From: Bacteroidota bacterium
Lineage (GTDB): Bacteria; Bacteroidota; Bacteroidia; B-17B0; Aurantibacillaceae
DNA: 64,000 nucleotides
Assembly: GCA_030692515.1 (NCBI GenBank)
Contig: JAUXZS010000056.1
Coordinates: 124,001-188,000 of the forward strand
Direction: 5' to 3'
Positions 10,667 through 18,603 of the stretch are shown one piece after another. The notes under the pieces were generated by a model. That model was not told where the DNA came from, ran no database searches, and worked only from the letters and a program-made list of their open reading frames with translations. Position numbers and translations under genes: made by a program. The stretch's first letter is position 1, and each line of letters opens with the position of its first letter.

Positions 10667-10740
10667 GGCCTCGTAGCTCAACTGGATAGAGTGTCGGTTT
10701 CCGGAACCGAAGGTTATGGGTTCGACTCCCTTCGAGGTCA
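10667..10740 (+). tRNA. tRNA-Arg (anticodon CCG)
   Basis: 74 nt folding into a full cloverleaf: acceptor GGCCTCG with CGAGGTC, D-arm GCTC/GAGT, anticodon stem TCGGT/ACCGA with loop TTCCGGA (anticodon CCG, reading CGG arginine codons), and a T-arm containing GGTTCGACTCC. Discriminator base A at 10740. The 3' CCA is not encoded and must be added enzymatically. It stands alone; no integrase or duplicated 3' end was seen nearby. Confidence 0.96.
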
Positions 10741-13117: not shown

Positions 13118-13954
13118 CTAATATAAAAATGGTAAAATACTCGGGTCTAATTTATCAAGTTCTGGTTTAGGCGTTGATTGATGAAACTGAATAAGATTGT
13201 CGTTTAAAATTCCAATATAAAGTGCCAACTTCTCTTTACTAAATTGTTTACCAATTAAAACTTCTTTAATACTCCCATTAAAAATAATCTTTTCCGTAAC
13301 GTCTGCGTTGGCGCCTGCGTATGTTTTGTCTTTTACATAATAAGGAAAAGGCGCTTTTAGTTGGTGGCTATATTTATTCTTTACAACAACCGCCATTTCC
13401 TTCACAGGATTGCCATGTTCAGAGACAAACTTTGCAGAATCTTCTTTAACAAAACCAATAGAAGAATTGTACGCATAATCTCGCTCGGCAATTAAATAAA
13501 ATTTTTCATTCATTGTAATTAATGGGTCAACAATTAAATTGCTGTCTAAAAAAATTCCTGTTTTTGCTCCTTGTAATAAACTATCGCTGCTGTAACTATA
13601 CATGAAATAAACTTTACAAAAAGTAAGTTGTTTCCTATAAGCATCTAGCGTGTTTTTATCAATTGCAAATTGCTCAGCCTCTTTTTCTATAGCCAAACTT
13701 TCATTTCCTTGTTTCCTTAATGCTTCTATTAACTTTTGATTTGTTTTCAGTCTTACAACTATCGCTCCCTCTTTTAGTTGATTGATTTGCCAAGCAGCAA
13801 TTATCATTCTTCTTTTTCTGAATTTTTCAAATTGCGCCCTATCTTTATAGTCTTTAGGTCTATAAATTTCCGATTCCTCTTGGGCTTTGGCTAAAACAAA
13901 TACACAAAAGAAAAGAAAAAAAATAATTACTTTCTTACCTGATAACTGAGCCAT
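13118..13954 (-). CDS. Secreted hypothetical protein downstream of metG
   Basis: 278 aa, no recognised function. A signal peptide ([15 protein letters not shown], ending A-K-A-Q) is followed by a charged, helix-prone region (residues 30-110, many K/E/R) and a mixed C-terminal half with Y-A-Y-N-S-S and K-A-P-F-P-Y-Y. No membrane segment follows the signal, so it is probably periplasmic or on the outer membrane. The ATG at 13954 lies inside the 3' end of metG (20-bp overlap), so it is probably co-transcribed with and translationally linked to metG. Relatedness to a Bacteroidota conserved hypothetical family is likely but unverified. Confidence 0.75.
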
Positions 13955-15977
13955 TTTCTATTTCGTTGTTTAAGGATGAAACGAAACTTAATTCGCCTTT
14001 TGCATTTTCTGCCATTAAAATCATTCCCTGACTTTCAATACCTTTAATTTTTCTTGGCGCTAGATTTACTAATAAACATACCTTTTGCCCAATAATCTCT
14101 TCTGGCTTAAAATAGGCCGCAATGCCACTTACAACTGTACGTGTATCAATACCTGTATCAACTACCAATTTTAATAATTTATCTGTTTTAGGAACTGCTT
14201 CAGCTGCAATAATTGTTGCGGTTCTAATATCCATTTTTGAAAAATCATCAAACGTAGTTTCGGGTTTAAGTTCAATCGGACCAGCGCTCATTAAATTTTC
14301 TTCTTTATTTTTTTGCAAGCGGTTTAATTGAATTTGAATTTGTTCATCTTCTACTTTTGAAAACAATAATTCATCTTTATTAATTTTATGGCCATGAGCT
14401 ACATTTGATGTTTGACTTGCGGCAGCCCAACGTAAAGGTTGAATGTTTAGAAGCTTAAATAATTTAATTGCCGTAAATGGTAAAAATGGTTCGGCTAAAA
14501 TTGCCAAATTGCAAGAAATCTGAAGTGCAACATTCATAATTGTTGCAACACGTTGCTCGTCGGTCTTAATTAATTTCCAAGGTTCCGTTTCTGCTAAATA
14601 TTTATTTCCAATTCGTGCAACATTCATCCATTCACTAATTGCTTCTCTGAATCTAAATTGTTCTATTGATTTAGCAATTTTTGCCGGGGCTTTAGCCAAC
14701 TCTTCTAAAACAATAAGGTCTTCTTTATTATACGTTTTTGCTTCTGGTACTTTTCCTTCGTAAAATTTATGTGTTAAAACCAAAGTTCTATTAATAAAAT
14801 TTCCAAAAATGGCTACCAGCTCACTATTGTTTTTTGTTTGAAAGTCTTTCCACGTAAAATCATTATCTTTTGTCTCTGGTGCATTTGAGCAAAGTGTATA
14901 ACGTAATACATCTTGCATGCCAACAAAATCTTGTAAATATTCGTGTAGCCAAACAGCCCAATTACGGGAGGTTGAAATTTTATCTCCCTCCAGATTTAAA
15001 AATTCATTTGCCGGAACATTATCTGGTAAAATAAATTCTCCGTGTTCCATTAACATGGCAGGAAAAATTATACAATGAAAAACAATATTATCTTTTCCAA
15101 TAAAATGAATTAATCTGCTATCATCCTTTTTCCAATATGTTTCCCAACTATCTGGTAACAACTCTTTAGTTGCTGAAATATATCCAATTGGAGCATCAAA
15201 CCAAACATAAAGCACTTTTCCTTCTGCATCTTTAACAGGAACAGGAACGCCCCAATCTAAATCCCTTGTCATTGCCCTTGGCTGTAATCCGTCTCCACTT
15301 TCCATCCAACTTTTACATTGACCATAAACATTGGGTTTCCAGTCGCTATGCTTTTCTATGTAGGCTTTAATTTTTGGCTGAAGTTTATCTAAGGGTAAAA
15401 ACCAATTTTTGGTTTGTTTTAATATTGGCTTACTTCCAGATAGAGTTGATTTAGGATCAATTAATTCGGTTGGACTAAGAGTAGAGCCACACTTCTCGCA
15501 TTGGTCGCCATAGGCATTTGGGTTAGCGCATTTAGGACAAGTTCCTACAATATATCTGTCTGCTAAAAACTGCTTAGCCGTATCATCATAATATTGTTCG
15601 GTAACTTGTTCGGTAAAAACATTTTTATCATACAACACTTTAAAAAAATCGGAGGCAGTTTGATGATGAATTTTGGAAGACGTACGAGAATATACATCAA
15701 AAGAAATTCCAAAGTCCTTAAAAGAAGTTCCCATCATAGCGTGGTACTTATCTACTATCGCTTGGGGGGTTGTGTGCTCTTTTTTTGCTTTAATGGTAAT
15801 AGGCACGCCATGCTCATCGCTTCCACAGATAAATTTTACATCGTGGCCAATGCTTCGTAAATATCTAACATAAATATCTGACGGTAAGTAACAACCTGCA
15901 AGATGCCCAATATGAACCGGACCGTTTGCATATGGTAGCGCGGCAGTAACTAATGTTCTTTTAAATTTTGACTCCAT
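13935..15977 (-). CDS. metG: Methionyl-tRNA synthetase
   Basis: 680 aa, the long MetRS type with a C-terminal dimerising/tRNA-binding domain. It charges tRNA(Met) in the cytoplasm. The class I HIGH motif is at residues 22-25; the zinc knuckle uses Cys147, Cys150, Cys160 and Cys163 (C-P-K-C, then C-E-K-C); the KMSKS loop appears as K-I-S-T-S at 333-337, as is common in this subgroup; and the C-terminal EMAP/Trbp111-like domain spans about 570-680 ([19 protein letters not shown]). All parts look intact. ATG start; the next gene overlaps its end. Confidence 0.97.
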
Positions 15978-16098
15978 TTCTTCTTCTCCTAATGTGCAAC
16001 ACGTTATACATTTTCAATTTTTTTTGTTGAATATGCAAATCAACCATTTTATTATTATATTTATACAAAAGTAACCATAACTATTAAAATAAATAACA

Positions 16099-16905
16099 AT
16101 GAGCAACAAAAAAGAAATTTGGAAAACAATTACCGTTAATGGCAAAAAACCTTCGGTGCCATATGTAATTTCTAATCACGGCCATTTTGGTGTATTATTA
16201 GATAAAAGTGGCAAGGTTGAAAGAAGAAATTTTAAGCCTACAGCGGGCAGCTATCGCTTTAATGTAAGACAAGATGGAAAAGCTGCTGCAATTTTTTTAT
16301 ATAAAGAAACTGCAAAAGCATTTTTAAAAAAACCATCGCCAAAACATAAGTTTGTCATTCATAAAGATCATAATTATTTAAATGATCATGTAGATAATTT
16401 AAAGTGGGCAACTCAAGCAGAACACAGAGCGCACACAACCTTTAGCCCAAATGCAATATTATCAAGAAAGAAAAAAGCTATCGTAAAAAGTTCACACTCG
16501 CAAATTTTTAATGAGAAAAGTATTGTTACTTTAAAGAAAATGATTTGGGATCCTAAAAGAAAGCTATCTTATAAACAAATAGCTGAAAAATTTGGCGTTT
16601 CCGAAATGCAAATTTATCGTATTAAAACCGGCCAGTTTTGGTATCACGTAAGAGTTGAAAACGAACCAATTCATCCAAAATACAAGCAAAACTTAAGTAA
16701 TATTGAGTATCAAGAAAAAAAATCAAATGCCGAAGCTGCTAAAAAAGAAAAGCGTGAAGCATTATTGAAAAAAGCTGCAGAAAAACGTAAAAAAACTGCT
16801 GCTCCAAAAAAGAAAAAAGCAAAAGCAGTAAAAAAAGCTGTTGTCAAAAAATCTAAAAAAGTAAAGGCTAAAAAATCAAAATCGTCAAAGAAAAAAAAGA
16901 AATAA
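16099..16905 (+). CDS. NUMOD4/HNH-like and HTH protein with histone-like lysine-rich tail
   Basis: 268 aa in three parts. Residues 8-35 resemble NUMOD4 (W-K-T-I, then Y-V-I-S-N-H-G-H-F), and 86-105 resemble an HNH_3 finger (V-I-H-K-D-H-N-Y-L-N-D-H-V-D-N-L-K-W-A-T). In homing endonucleases this begins V-H-H; here the first His is Ile, so nuclease activity is doubtful. Residues 155-182 form a helix-turn-helix (K-Q-I-A-E-K-F-G-V-S). From about residue 205 the tail is Lys/Ala-rich like histone H1 or bacterial Hc1 proteins. It is not inside an intron or phage. I infer a domesticated DNA-binding, perhaps nucleoid-associated, protein. Only 4 bp separate it from ldcA. Confidence 0.8.
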   Translation: MSNKKEIWKTITVNGKKPSVPYVISNHGHFGVLLDKSGKVERRNFKPTAGSYRFNVRQDGKAAAIFLYKETAKAFLKKPSPKHKFVIHKDHNYLNDHVDNLKWATQAEHRAHTTFSPNAILSRKKKAIVKSSHSQIFNEKSIVTLKKMIWDPKRKLSYKQIAEKFGVSEMQIYRIKTGQFWYHVRVENEPIHPKYKQNLSNIEYQEKKSNAEAAKKEKREALLKKAAEKRKKTAAPKKKKAKAVKKAVVKKSKKVKAKKSKSSKKKKK

Positions 16906-16909
16906 TATA

Positions 16910-17806
16910 ATGGCTATTACTCCTTCTTATTTAAAAAAAGGCGATACCATTTTAATTATAGCAACAGCGCGCGCAAGGTCTGAAAACGAAATCAAACCTT
17001 CGGTTGAAATATTAAAAAGTTGGGGCTTAAAGGTTGAACTTGGCCCCAACATTTTCAAAAAACACCATCAATTTGCAGGAACAGATGAAGAACGGGCTGC
17101 AGATTTACAGTGGGCAATTAACCATAAAACTGCAAAGGCTATTTTAATAAGCGGTGGTGGCTATGGTTCGTTAAGAATAATTGATAAGGCTAATTTTAAA
17201 CCCTTTTTTAAAAACCCTAAGTGGCTTGTTGGTTATAGCGACACAACCGTGTTGCACAGCAGGTTAACTAATTTAAATATTGCTGCAATTCATGGCACCA
17301 TGGCTTTTCAGTTTCAAAAAAACGCAGAGGCTACCTTATCTATAAAAAAATTATTGTTTGGTGAAAAAGTAAACTACCAATTTCCTTACAGTACATTAAA
17401 CAGAATTGGTGTTGCCGAAGCTGAAATTGTTGGCGGAAATTTATCTTTATTGTATGCTTTAAGCGGAAGCGTTGACGATGTTTCAACAAAAAATAAAATT
17501 TTGTTTTTAGAAGATTTGGATGAACAACTTTATCACATTGATAGAATGATGTTGCAACTAAAGCGCAGCGGAAAACTAAAACATTTAAAAGGTTTAATTG
17601 TTGGTGGTATGTCGGACATGAAAGACAATGCCATTCCATTTGGTAAAACTGCCGAAGAAATAGTTTTAGATGCTGTTAAGGAGTATAATTATCCGGTGTG
17701 TTTTAACTTTCCTGCCGGTCATATCGAAAAAAACATGGCCATTTACTTAGGAAAAAAAGCAAAGTTAAGTGTAACAAAAAGCAAAGTGAGTTTAAACTAT
17801 TTATAA
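16910..17806 (+). CDS. ldcA: Muramoyltetrapeptide LD-carboxypeptidase (S66 family)
   Basis: 298 aa, the normal S66 length. It removes the terminal D-Ala from tetrapeptide stems during peptidoglycan recycling; it has no signal peptide and acts in the cytoplasm. The catalytic Ser-Glu-His triad is visible: Ser110 (V-G-Y-S-D-T-T), Glu201 (F-L-E-D-L-D-E) and His271 (P-A-G-H). The G-G-G-Y-G-S motif before it is also family-typical. It starts 4 bp after the HNH-like gene and its TAA overlaps the ATG of the next gene, so all three probably form one operon. Confidence 0.93.
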   Translation: MAITPSYLKKGDTILIIATARARSENEIKPSVEILKSWGLKVELGPNIFKKHHQFAGTDEERAADLQWAINHKTAKAILISGGGYGSLRIIDKANFKPFFKNPKWLVGYSDTTVLHSRLTNLNIAAIHGTMAFQFQKNAEATLSIKKLLFGEKVNYQFPYSTLNRIGVAEAEIVGGNLSLLYALSGSVDDVSTKNKILFLEDLDEQLYHIDRMMLQLKRSGKLKHLKGLIVGGMSDMKDNAIPFGKTAEEIVLDAVKEYNYPVCFNFPAGHIEKNMAIYLGKKAKLSVTKSKVSLNYL

Positions 17807-18603
17807 TGAAGTGTAAAACAGCCGATGATTTAAGTATTTATTATGAAGTTCAGGGAAATCTTGAATCTTCAGAAACAATTGTACTTTTAAATGGATTAAC
17901 ACAATCCACCGTTTCGTGGTTTTTTGTTTTGCAACACCTTAAAGAAAAATATAAAATTATTTTATTGGATTTTATTTTTCAGGGGCAAAGCGATAAGGCA
18001 GAGCATTGGCGAGATTTTGACCAACACGCCAACGACGTAAAACATGTTTTACAACACGAAAAAATAACTAAGGCAAATATTATTGGTTTATCATACGGTA
18101 GTTTAGTGGCACAAAATTTTGCTGTTAATTATCCAACATTTGTAAATAAATTAATTTTAATTTCAACGTTTGCTCATAAAACACCTTATTATGAAGCCGT
18201 TGAATTAGGATGGTGGCGAGCGTTAGAGATGGGTGGTTATAATTTAATGTTAGACATTATGTTGCCAAGTGTTTTAAGCGAAGATTATTTTTCAAACCCA
18301 ATTATCCCAATAAATTTAATGAAAGAAGCGCGTTTGGATGCGCAGCAAAACAAACAGGCCATTTTTAATTTAATGCAGGCAACAAAAGATAGAAAAGATT
18401 ACCGAAAGGAGCTCGAAAAAATAACGGCACCAACATTAATTATACAAGGAGAAAAAGATTTATTGTTACCTGTACATTTAGCAGAAGAAGTTCACAAACA
18501 CATTAAGAATTCTAAAATTAAAGTAATTAAAAACGCAGGCCATACTTTAAACTTAGAACACGTGCCGGAAGTGTGTGGAGATATAAAAGAGTTTTTACTT
18601 TAA
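17806..18603 (+). CDS. Alpha/beta-fold hydrolase
   Basis: 265 aa cytoplasmic hydrolase. The nucleophile elbow G-L-S-Y-G-S places Ser96, with the acid Asp218 (G-E-K-D) and the base His246 (N-A-G-H-T) in the expected order, and a lid region at about 125-185. The oxyanion region is L-N-G-L-T-Q-S. The substrate cannot be inferred: esterases, lactonases and haloperoxidase-like enzymes share this layout. Its ATG shares a base with the ldcA stop, so the two are translationally coupled. The 3' end overlaps the convergent bshB1 by 9 bp. Confidence 0.88.
   Translation: MKCKTADDLSIYYEVQGNLESSETIVLLNGLTQSTVSWFFVLQHLKEKYKIILLDFIFQGQSDKAEHWRDFDQHANDVKHVLQHEKITKANIIGLSYGSLVAQNFAVNYPTFVNKLILISTFAHKTPYYEAVELGWWRALEMGGYNLMLDIMLPSVLSEDYFSNPIIPINLMKEARLDAQQNKQAIFNLMQATKDRKDYRKELEKITAPTLIIQGEKDLLLPVHLAEEVHKHIKNSKIKVIKNAGHTLNLEHVPEVCGDIKEFLL

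Follow-up and report, generated by a model that had tools for sequence, protein, structure and literature searches.

A probably nuclease-dead relative of I-HmuI-type HNH homing endonucleases in Bacteroidia, with a histone-like lysine tail in one lineage

The window analyzed here—a stretch of 64,000 nucleotides from the genome of a Bacteroidota bacterium (4.33 Mb in 68 contigs)—carries a gene whose product joins a NUMOD4-like N-terminal region and an HNH region to an HTH and a lysine-rich C-terminal tail (Table 1). Both sequence and profile searches found the gene in single copy in this genome. It is divergent from metG and heads a probable operon with an ldcA-like gene and a hydrolase gene.

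Table 1. Features at the locus, in window coordinates
Feature	Coordinates	Strand	Basis or remark
metG (methionyl-tRNA synthetase), divergent neighbor	13935..15977	-	
Divergent promoter region between metG and the gene, 121 bp	15978..16098	.	conserved box
Gene for the I-HmuI-type NUMOD4/HNH-fold protein with HTH and Lys tail	16099..16905	+	ATG to TAA, 268 aa; hmmscan, PHROG, profile alignment, model
NUMOD4-like N-terminal beta region, residues 5-66	16111..16296	+	homology, I-HmuI profile, model strands
HNH (beta-beta-alpha) region, residues 79-112	16333..16434	+	Pfam, I-HmuI alignment, model, family survey
Ile87 codon (I-HmuI D74 position)	16357-16359	+	profile alignment
HTH region, residues 139-187, family motif SEMQxYRIKxGxxW	16513..16659	+	Pfam, model, conservation comparison
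Lys-rich tail, residues 204-268, lineage-specific	16708..16902	+	composition, lineage survey
S66 LD-carboxypeptidase (ldcA-like)	16910..17806	+	4-bp gap, probably co-transcribed
Alpha/beta hydrolase	17806..18603	+	probably same operon

What kind of protein does this gene encode? Pfam HNH_3 matched residues 79-110 with 23.4 bits by hmmscan, slightly below the cut-off of 24.8, and with 26.1 bits—above the cut-off—when the same protein was searched as a genome frame. The HTH that an earlier note on this DNA had placed after the HNH part is borne out by HTH_23, which exceeds its cut-off at residues 148-176 (25.0 versus 24.6 bits). PHROG 59, an HNH endonuclease family, matched at 1.6e-15 over residues 2-263, spanning the NUMOD4-like, HNH, and HTH parts, and the best PADLOC match was “homing endonuclease.” Pfam NUMOD4 (PF07463) had no hmmscan match to the window protein at E ≤ 1 but did match 12 rows of the 17-row alignment A1 (best 7.1e-10), all of them relatives and none the window row. 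The NUMOD4 reading of the N terminus is thus by homology only: of the two domains named in the earlier note, HNH_3 held up, with scores on either side of its cut-off, and NUMOD4 matched relatives but gave no match in the window protein itself.

The fold leads to the same group of enzymes. A PDB search with a profile of 55 family members returned I-HmuI (1u3e), the NUMOD4/HNH homing endonuclease of a Bacillus phage, at 2.2e-12 as the sole homing enzyme, its match starting at position 21 of the profile; the other five matches up to E 1 all had E ≥ 0.36. The AlphaFold (AF2) model of the window protein (mean pLDDT 93.6) contains a beta-beta-alpha unit with strands at residues 85-88 and 101-104 and a helix at 106-114. 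I-HmuI was its top Foldseek match (3.5e-6), with no other match below 0.001, and VIA-align placed model residues 6-119—the N-terminal DNA-binding strands and the HNH fold—on residues 1-106 of the I-HmuI chain with Z 12.2 (3.1 A over 105 residues). The same enzyme came top, at 1.3e-6, for a tail-less relative from Carboxylicivirga (model pLDDT 88.4). The window protein is therefore homologous in both sequence and fold to an I-HmuI-type HNH homing endonuclease over its NUMOD4-like and HNH regions. VIA-align rows at the tail were long helices of large complexes and are meaningless for this protein.

How much of the nuclease site is left? Profile alignment pairs Ile87 of the window protein with D74 of I-HmuI, His88 with H75, and Asn100 with N87; counting along puts His109 at the N96 position. 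We take D74 and N96 of I-HmuI to hold the metal. The available part of a 2025 lactococcal phage paper (PMC12724721) identifies the conserved catalytic residues of I-HmuI as D74, H75, and N96, and D40 and N62, the counterparts in Endo VII, bind metal according to the accessible text of PMC6083498. The window protein, with Ile87, His88, and His109, does not have this catalytic set. Its lineage carries His at the N96 position, so that a literal H-N-H remains; what is missing is just the first member of the pair.

The loss is family-wide. In 105 unique family cores—collected from bacterial genomes by similarity to the window, so that rows unlike it are under-represented—the D74 position is occupied by Ile (92), Leu (8), or Val (5), and the Ile that the earlier note had read in place of the first His of a V-H-H-x-D motif belongs to this pattern. 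The H75 position has His in 97 cores, Arg in 5, Cys in 2, and Leu in 1; the N96 position has Met in 39, His in 29, Val in 28, and other residues in 9. Asn at the N87 position is present in 105/105 and His at the H112 position in 104/105. Of the family loci behind these cores, L001-L052 were the top matches to the window, each search contributing no more than 30; L053-L132 were the 80 most similar to the window of at least 571 relatives confirmed in a scan of genome contigs by an HTH pattern that does not involve the HNH site, and this selection leaves distant variants under-sampled. In contrast to the aliphatic-H..M/V/H pattern and conserved HTH of the family, the phage and plasmid relatives read (PHROG 59/959 type), which have divergent HTHs, were N-H..N in 9/9, with Asn at the D74 position; they comprised 8 of the top 40 among 271 phage records and the sole plasmid record (272 matching records in all). 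The D74 position was more mixed in 12 unique rows from viral contigs (Asn 4, Ile 3, gap 2, and Ala, His, and Cys 1 each). It was also mixed in the 20 unique rows added by an HNH_3 (PF13392) survey of 30 loci, two of which (L155 and L164) gave no aligned frame: Arg in 4, His in 3, Leu, Asn, Ile, and Ser in 2 each, and five other residues in 1 each, with Phe at the H75 position in 7.

Does the family still cut DNA? One alternative is an active but atypical homing endonuclease that would hold its metal with H109 and H112 and spread into empty metG-ldcA sites. An unusual metal site of this sort is possible, given that H88, N100, and H109 are intact in the window protein and that His at the H112 position is nearly invariant in the family; the retention of the former three makes nuclease loss likely rather than proven, and the doubt that the earlier note cast on nuclease activity stands in that form. 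Against an active site, the D74 position is aliphatic in every core, and the catalytic His is replaced by Arg or Cys in seven unique members of the window’s own lineage. The genes of these members are intact, so their retention probably does not depend on a functional nuclease site. Replacing the equivalent His with Ala in the GVE2 HNH enzyme (HNHE) removed 94% of nicking, as stated in the available part of PMC5304195. We therefore consider continued nuclease activity unlikely, and the genomic evidence below bears on it further.

The family occurs in many Bacteroidia. A single-sequence search at E ≤ 0.001 found it in 69 of 395 genomes of the class, own genome included, and a profile search at the same threshold in 107/395, also including the own genome; the latter is an upper figure, since it also counts weaker matches, some of them ordinary HNH proteins and some members of a different HNH-fold family, and profile-search loci L193-L222 were left out of further reading. 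A phylum survey at E ≤ 1e-25 matched 16 of 247 genomes—the own genome and 15 of the same class; of the 247, any number may lie outside the class. The closest named relatives, among the matches listed, were mostly unclassified Bacteroidia or Bacteroidetes metagenome bins. Two of the 80 kept records carry other labels, L110 (Beijerinckiaceae) and L096 (Chlorobiota); they are probably mislabeled or misbinned, because their neighborhoods (ligA and an arginine-proline run) are typical of Bacteroidota.

A tree was built from 63 rows, 33 of them selected from the family and 30 from elsewhere, after masking of the three catalytic columns. It is unrooted and required three changes of the aliphatic D74 label, versus a mean of 19.7 when labels were shuffled. 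The phage-type rows group together, 17 in number (support 89/91); with the root placed at that group, one change to the aliphatic state, with other variants arising later, could suffice. Two rows from the class survey with HNH_3, L161 (Gly) and L183 (Ser), fall within the family despite their D74-position residues and represent a longer subfamily of ~266 aa.

Where does the gene sit? Among 81 loci (the window and 80 named, with L078 left out of the neighbor table), metG, in divergent orientation, and/or the S66 ldcA lies beside the gene in 26, all in the window’s lineage. In 36 others the gene follows ligA—a DNA ligase by Pfam in one example (8.2e-58)—with DUF2461 next or next but one in 32 of these, and in seven it follows an argD-like aminotransferase, with proC next in six. 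The latter run also includes genes that appear, from reading their sequences, to be argG, proB, and proA. Thus 69 of the 81 loci fall into three neighborhoods, and the other 12 lie elsewhere. Gaps of -14 to 17 bp to ldcA (24 loci) and of 11 to 21 bp to argD (7 loci) suggest co-transcription; those to ligA are 29 to 241 bp. metG adjoins the gene at 28 of the 29 loci from the own genome and its genus (L001-L029), the exception, L029, lying elsewhere, and at the sister-genus loci L031 and L032. The gene order (ldcA, hydrolase) that the earlier note read as a housekeeping-looking operon is present in the window, but the ldcA side holds only in this lineage.

Fixed chromosomal neighbors of this kind, and an Rfam scan of the window that at gathering thresholds found one tRNA (10667-10740) and no intron, place the gene outside an intron, intein, or phage genome, unlike that of I-HmuI. 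The earlier note’s statement that the context is not an intron, phage, or mobile one holds for this gene but not for every relative. One Ile-type family member (L133, 7818-8384; also L134 and L135) was found on a contig that looks phage-like: downstream of it is a head maturation protease (phrog_53, 1.3e-42), and upstream a large protein that matches a phage protein family without an assigned function. The family is therefore not confined to chromosomes.

Is the gene inherited with its surroundings? Across 28 loci, patristic distances in the gene tree and in a metG+ldcA tree were correlated (r 0.62), with none of 2,000 permutations as high; after pruning of near copies, r was 0.41 over 19 loci, with 16 of 2,000 permutations as high. 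The two trees thus agree in part. L224 was omitted from the metG-based tree, its metG being cut. The gene is absent from 8 of 36 genomes of the same genus, and in all eight metG and ldcA adjoin cleanly. Its presence or absence changes at least five times on a tree that includes seven of the eight gene-less genomes and has several weak branches. The gene is therefore dispensable and has been repeatedly lost or gained. Occupied and empty sites within one genus, together with the repeated changes, also fit a homing-gene cycle, which is our main reason for keeping the active homing endonuclease as an alternative; the absence of an intron from the window and the same HTH at unrelated loci (below) speak against it. 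G016, a genome of the same genus, carries a partially matching frame of 263 codons in addition to its metG-linked copy.

The protein core is under strong purifying selection. For the first 200 residues, dN/dS (Nei-Gojobori) was 0.006-0.035 in 21 pairs from seven close genomes with dS of 0.52-1.38; most wider pairs are saturated at synonymous sites. Two pairs were outliers: L062-L063 (core 0.14, tail 0.58) and L055-L059 (core 0.063). These core values reject a pseudogene or decaying relic, although low dN/dS would also fit an active selfish gene. They bear on another alternative as well, a chromosomal guard—a dead nuclease that would sit on the sites used by related phage homing nucleases or keep phage genes repressed. 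The abundance of phage homologues, the Ile-type copy in a phage-like contig, and the dispensable, patchy gene would agree with such a role, but the identified neighbors are housekeeping genes and guard proteins tend to evolve fast, whereas this core does not; we regard the guard as very improbable.

If not the nuclease site, which part of the protein is held constant? The HNH part is equally conserved in 33 family rows and in a control of 15 phage-type rows with Asn at the N96 position, the mean pairwise identity being 0.51 in each. In the same rows, HTH identity is 0.56 in the family versus 0.27 in the phage type, and over residues 162-182 it is 0.72 versus 0.33, the low phage-type values perhaps partly reflecting misalignment. 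The most conserved part of the family is thus the recognition helix, about twice as conserved as in the phage-type nucleases, and constraint has moved from the HNH part to the HTH. Recognition has to differ between homing nucleases that occupy different sites, so the constancy of the family HTH argues against recognition of the insertion site; one helix kept at unrelated loci would instead point to a conserved target.

The conserved box between metG and the gene is near-palindromic in some congeners (e.g., TTACTTTTATACAAAGGTAA). It fits two back-to-back -7 elements, going by what we take to be the Bacteroidota consensus, although it might also be an operator. By eye, no palindrome common to lineages was found upstream of 25 metG-side loci (24 and the window) or of the ligA-side loci, where only promoter-like boxes were seen.

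The earlier note’s comparison of the last ~60 residues with histone H1 fits their composition: Lys makes up 46% and Ala 18% of residues 204-268. Could this be a by-product of A+T richness? Among 63 stop-to-stop frames of at least 100 codons in the window, the last 60 residues of this gene product are 47% Lys and the next best are 25%. Furthermore, at least 30% Lys in the last 40 residues was found in 17 of 316 proteins from 25 lineage loci, a total that counts the copies of this protein, and all 17 were this protein itself. Both comparisons reject base composition as the explanation. Tail sequence and length vary among carriers while the composition is kept, as in H1-type tails, and tail dN/dS (0.058-0.257 in the 16 of 21 pairs for which it was computable) indicates weaker sequence constraint than in the core. 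The AlphaFold model shows the tail as a single long, high-confidence helix. We give this helix no weight, since such helices are commonly predicted for low-complexity Lys/Ala sequence.

The tail is restricted to part of the window’s lineage. A lysine-rich tail—at least 30 residues after the HTH motif with at least 25% Lys—is present at 21 of 26 loci of this lineage versus none of the 55 others. The five exceptions are L061 (24% Lys), L065 (22%), and L074, L075, and L076 (24-27 residues); copies L026 and L027 extend only two or three residues beyond the lineage’s conserved segment. The tail is therefore not part of the domestication itself: of the earlier note’s picture of a domesticated protein with a histone-like tail, the recurrence of the tail holds within the lineage but not across the family.

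A nucleoid-associated protein—binding mostly non-specifically, relying on its tail, and shaping the chromosome rather than single promoters—is a rival to which the tail lends some weight, a lysine-rich C terminus being a feature of such proteins. Median predicted pI is 9.8-10.3 in four groups of loci, and HupB requires its PAKK/KAAK tail for nucleoid association according to the available text of PMC5676037. HupB likewise combines a DNA-binding core with an H1-like Lys/Ala-rich C-terminal tail (same source), although its core is an HU fold unrelated to that of the window protein. Against this role stand the tail-less loci outside the lineage, the almost tail-less L074-L076 within it, and the conserved recognition helix, which suggests a specific target; we judge the nucleoid role unlikely. 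The high pI and the metG neighbor might also suggest an RNA-binding or translation-linked factor, a basic protein divergent from metG. That neighbor is specific to one lineage and both the fold and the HTH are DNA-binding types, which leaves this reading with hardly any probability.

How can these observations be combined? The reading we prefer, and hold to be probable, is that the family is a domesticated I-HmuI-type HNH homing endonuclease that has lost its nuclease and is kept for DNA binding, most likely as a regulator of the WhiA type. The domestication proposed in the earlier note thus gains support from the family-wide Ile/Leu/Val, the fixed sites, purifying selection, and the conserved HTH. 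According to this reading, a family now spread through many Bacteroidia would have descended from a phage HNH homing endonuclease and lost the acidic or amide residue beside the catalytic His, by analogy a metal ligand. Its NUMOD4-like region, emptied HNH fold, and above all HTH would bind a specific DNA target conserved across the class. The Lys/Ala tail, added in much of the window’s lineage, would be expected to strengthen non-specific DNA binding, much as the H1-like tail does in HupB. Computation shows the fold, the lost residues, purifying selection, the lineage-specific gene neighborhoods, the conserved HTH, and the confinement of the tail to one lineage; from these we infer the absence of cleavage, the binding of DNA, the regulatory role, the conserved target, and the effect of the tail. 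The family is real and old, and probably nuclease-dead and DNA-binding, with a histone-like tail specific to one lineage. The preferred reading is weakened by the patchy presence, the lower correlation after pruning, the three changes of the aliphatic state, the phage-contig member, and the lack of a shared operator by eye.

WhiA (DUF199) offers the closest parallel in kind, not by homology. It is a domesticated LAGLIDADG homing endonuclease without metal binding and catalysis that binds DNA through its HTH, as described in the available part of PMC3781837. It shares with the window family a degenerate homing-nuclease domain and a C-terminal HTH, and differs in having a LAGLIDADG rather than HNH fold, a known regulon, and a Gram-positive distribution. 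Like WhiA, the family combines a degenerate site and an HTH with largely vertical chromosomal inheritance, here with repeated losses or gains. A stronger version is possible but tentative: transcription factors that arose from an HNH homing endonuclease and extend across the Bacteroidia, a Bacteroidota counterpart of WhiA. Their recognition helix and target would have stayed constant while the gene came to occupy different places in different lineages (near ldcA, ligA, or arginine-proline genes), and in one lineage a Lys tail added later would have made the protein histone-like. Among eukaryotes, the plant AP2/ERF DNA-binding domain is thought to descend from HNH homing endonucleases.

In the open-access literature, as far as its available text goes, we found no biochemistry or other experiment on any family member and no paper on NUMOD4 in Bacteroidetes; NUMOD4 domain-containing proteins appeared in this literature only in phage papers. 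Nor did we find there, including the available part of PMC8987985, a domesticated HNH-type DNA-binding protein of bacteria, which is weak evidence of absence. Profile libraries label the family “HNH endonuclease” (PHROGs) or “homing endonuclease” (PADLOC) despite the missing catalytic residue of I-HmuI. Should its members prove to be regulators, a group of DNA-binding proteins found in many Bacteroidia has gone unnoticed. The family would then provide a bacterial HNH parallel to WhiA, one whose phage nuclease relatives survive and can be compared, and a chance to follow the addition of a histone-like tail to a specific DNA binder.

Two other kinds of HNH-fold locus were seen. A second Bacteroidia family of ~190 aa has Phe in place of the catalytic His (7 unique rows; loci L165, L166, L170, L173, L175, L176, L177, and L180), and its five rows in the tree form a branch of their own. 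At L049/L179 (G103, contig C34), a 375-codon frame contains two tandem domain matches, one copy with Leu for the catalytic His.
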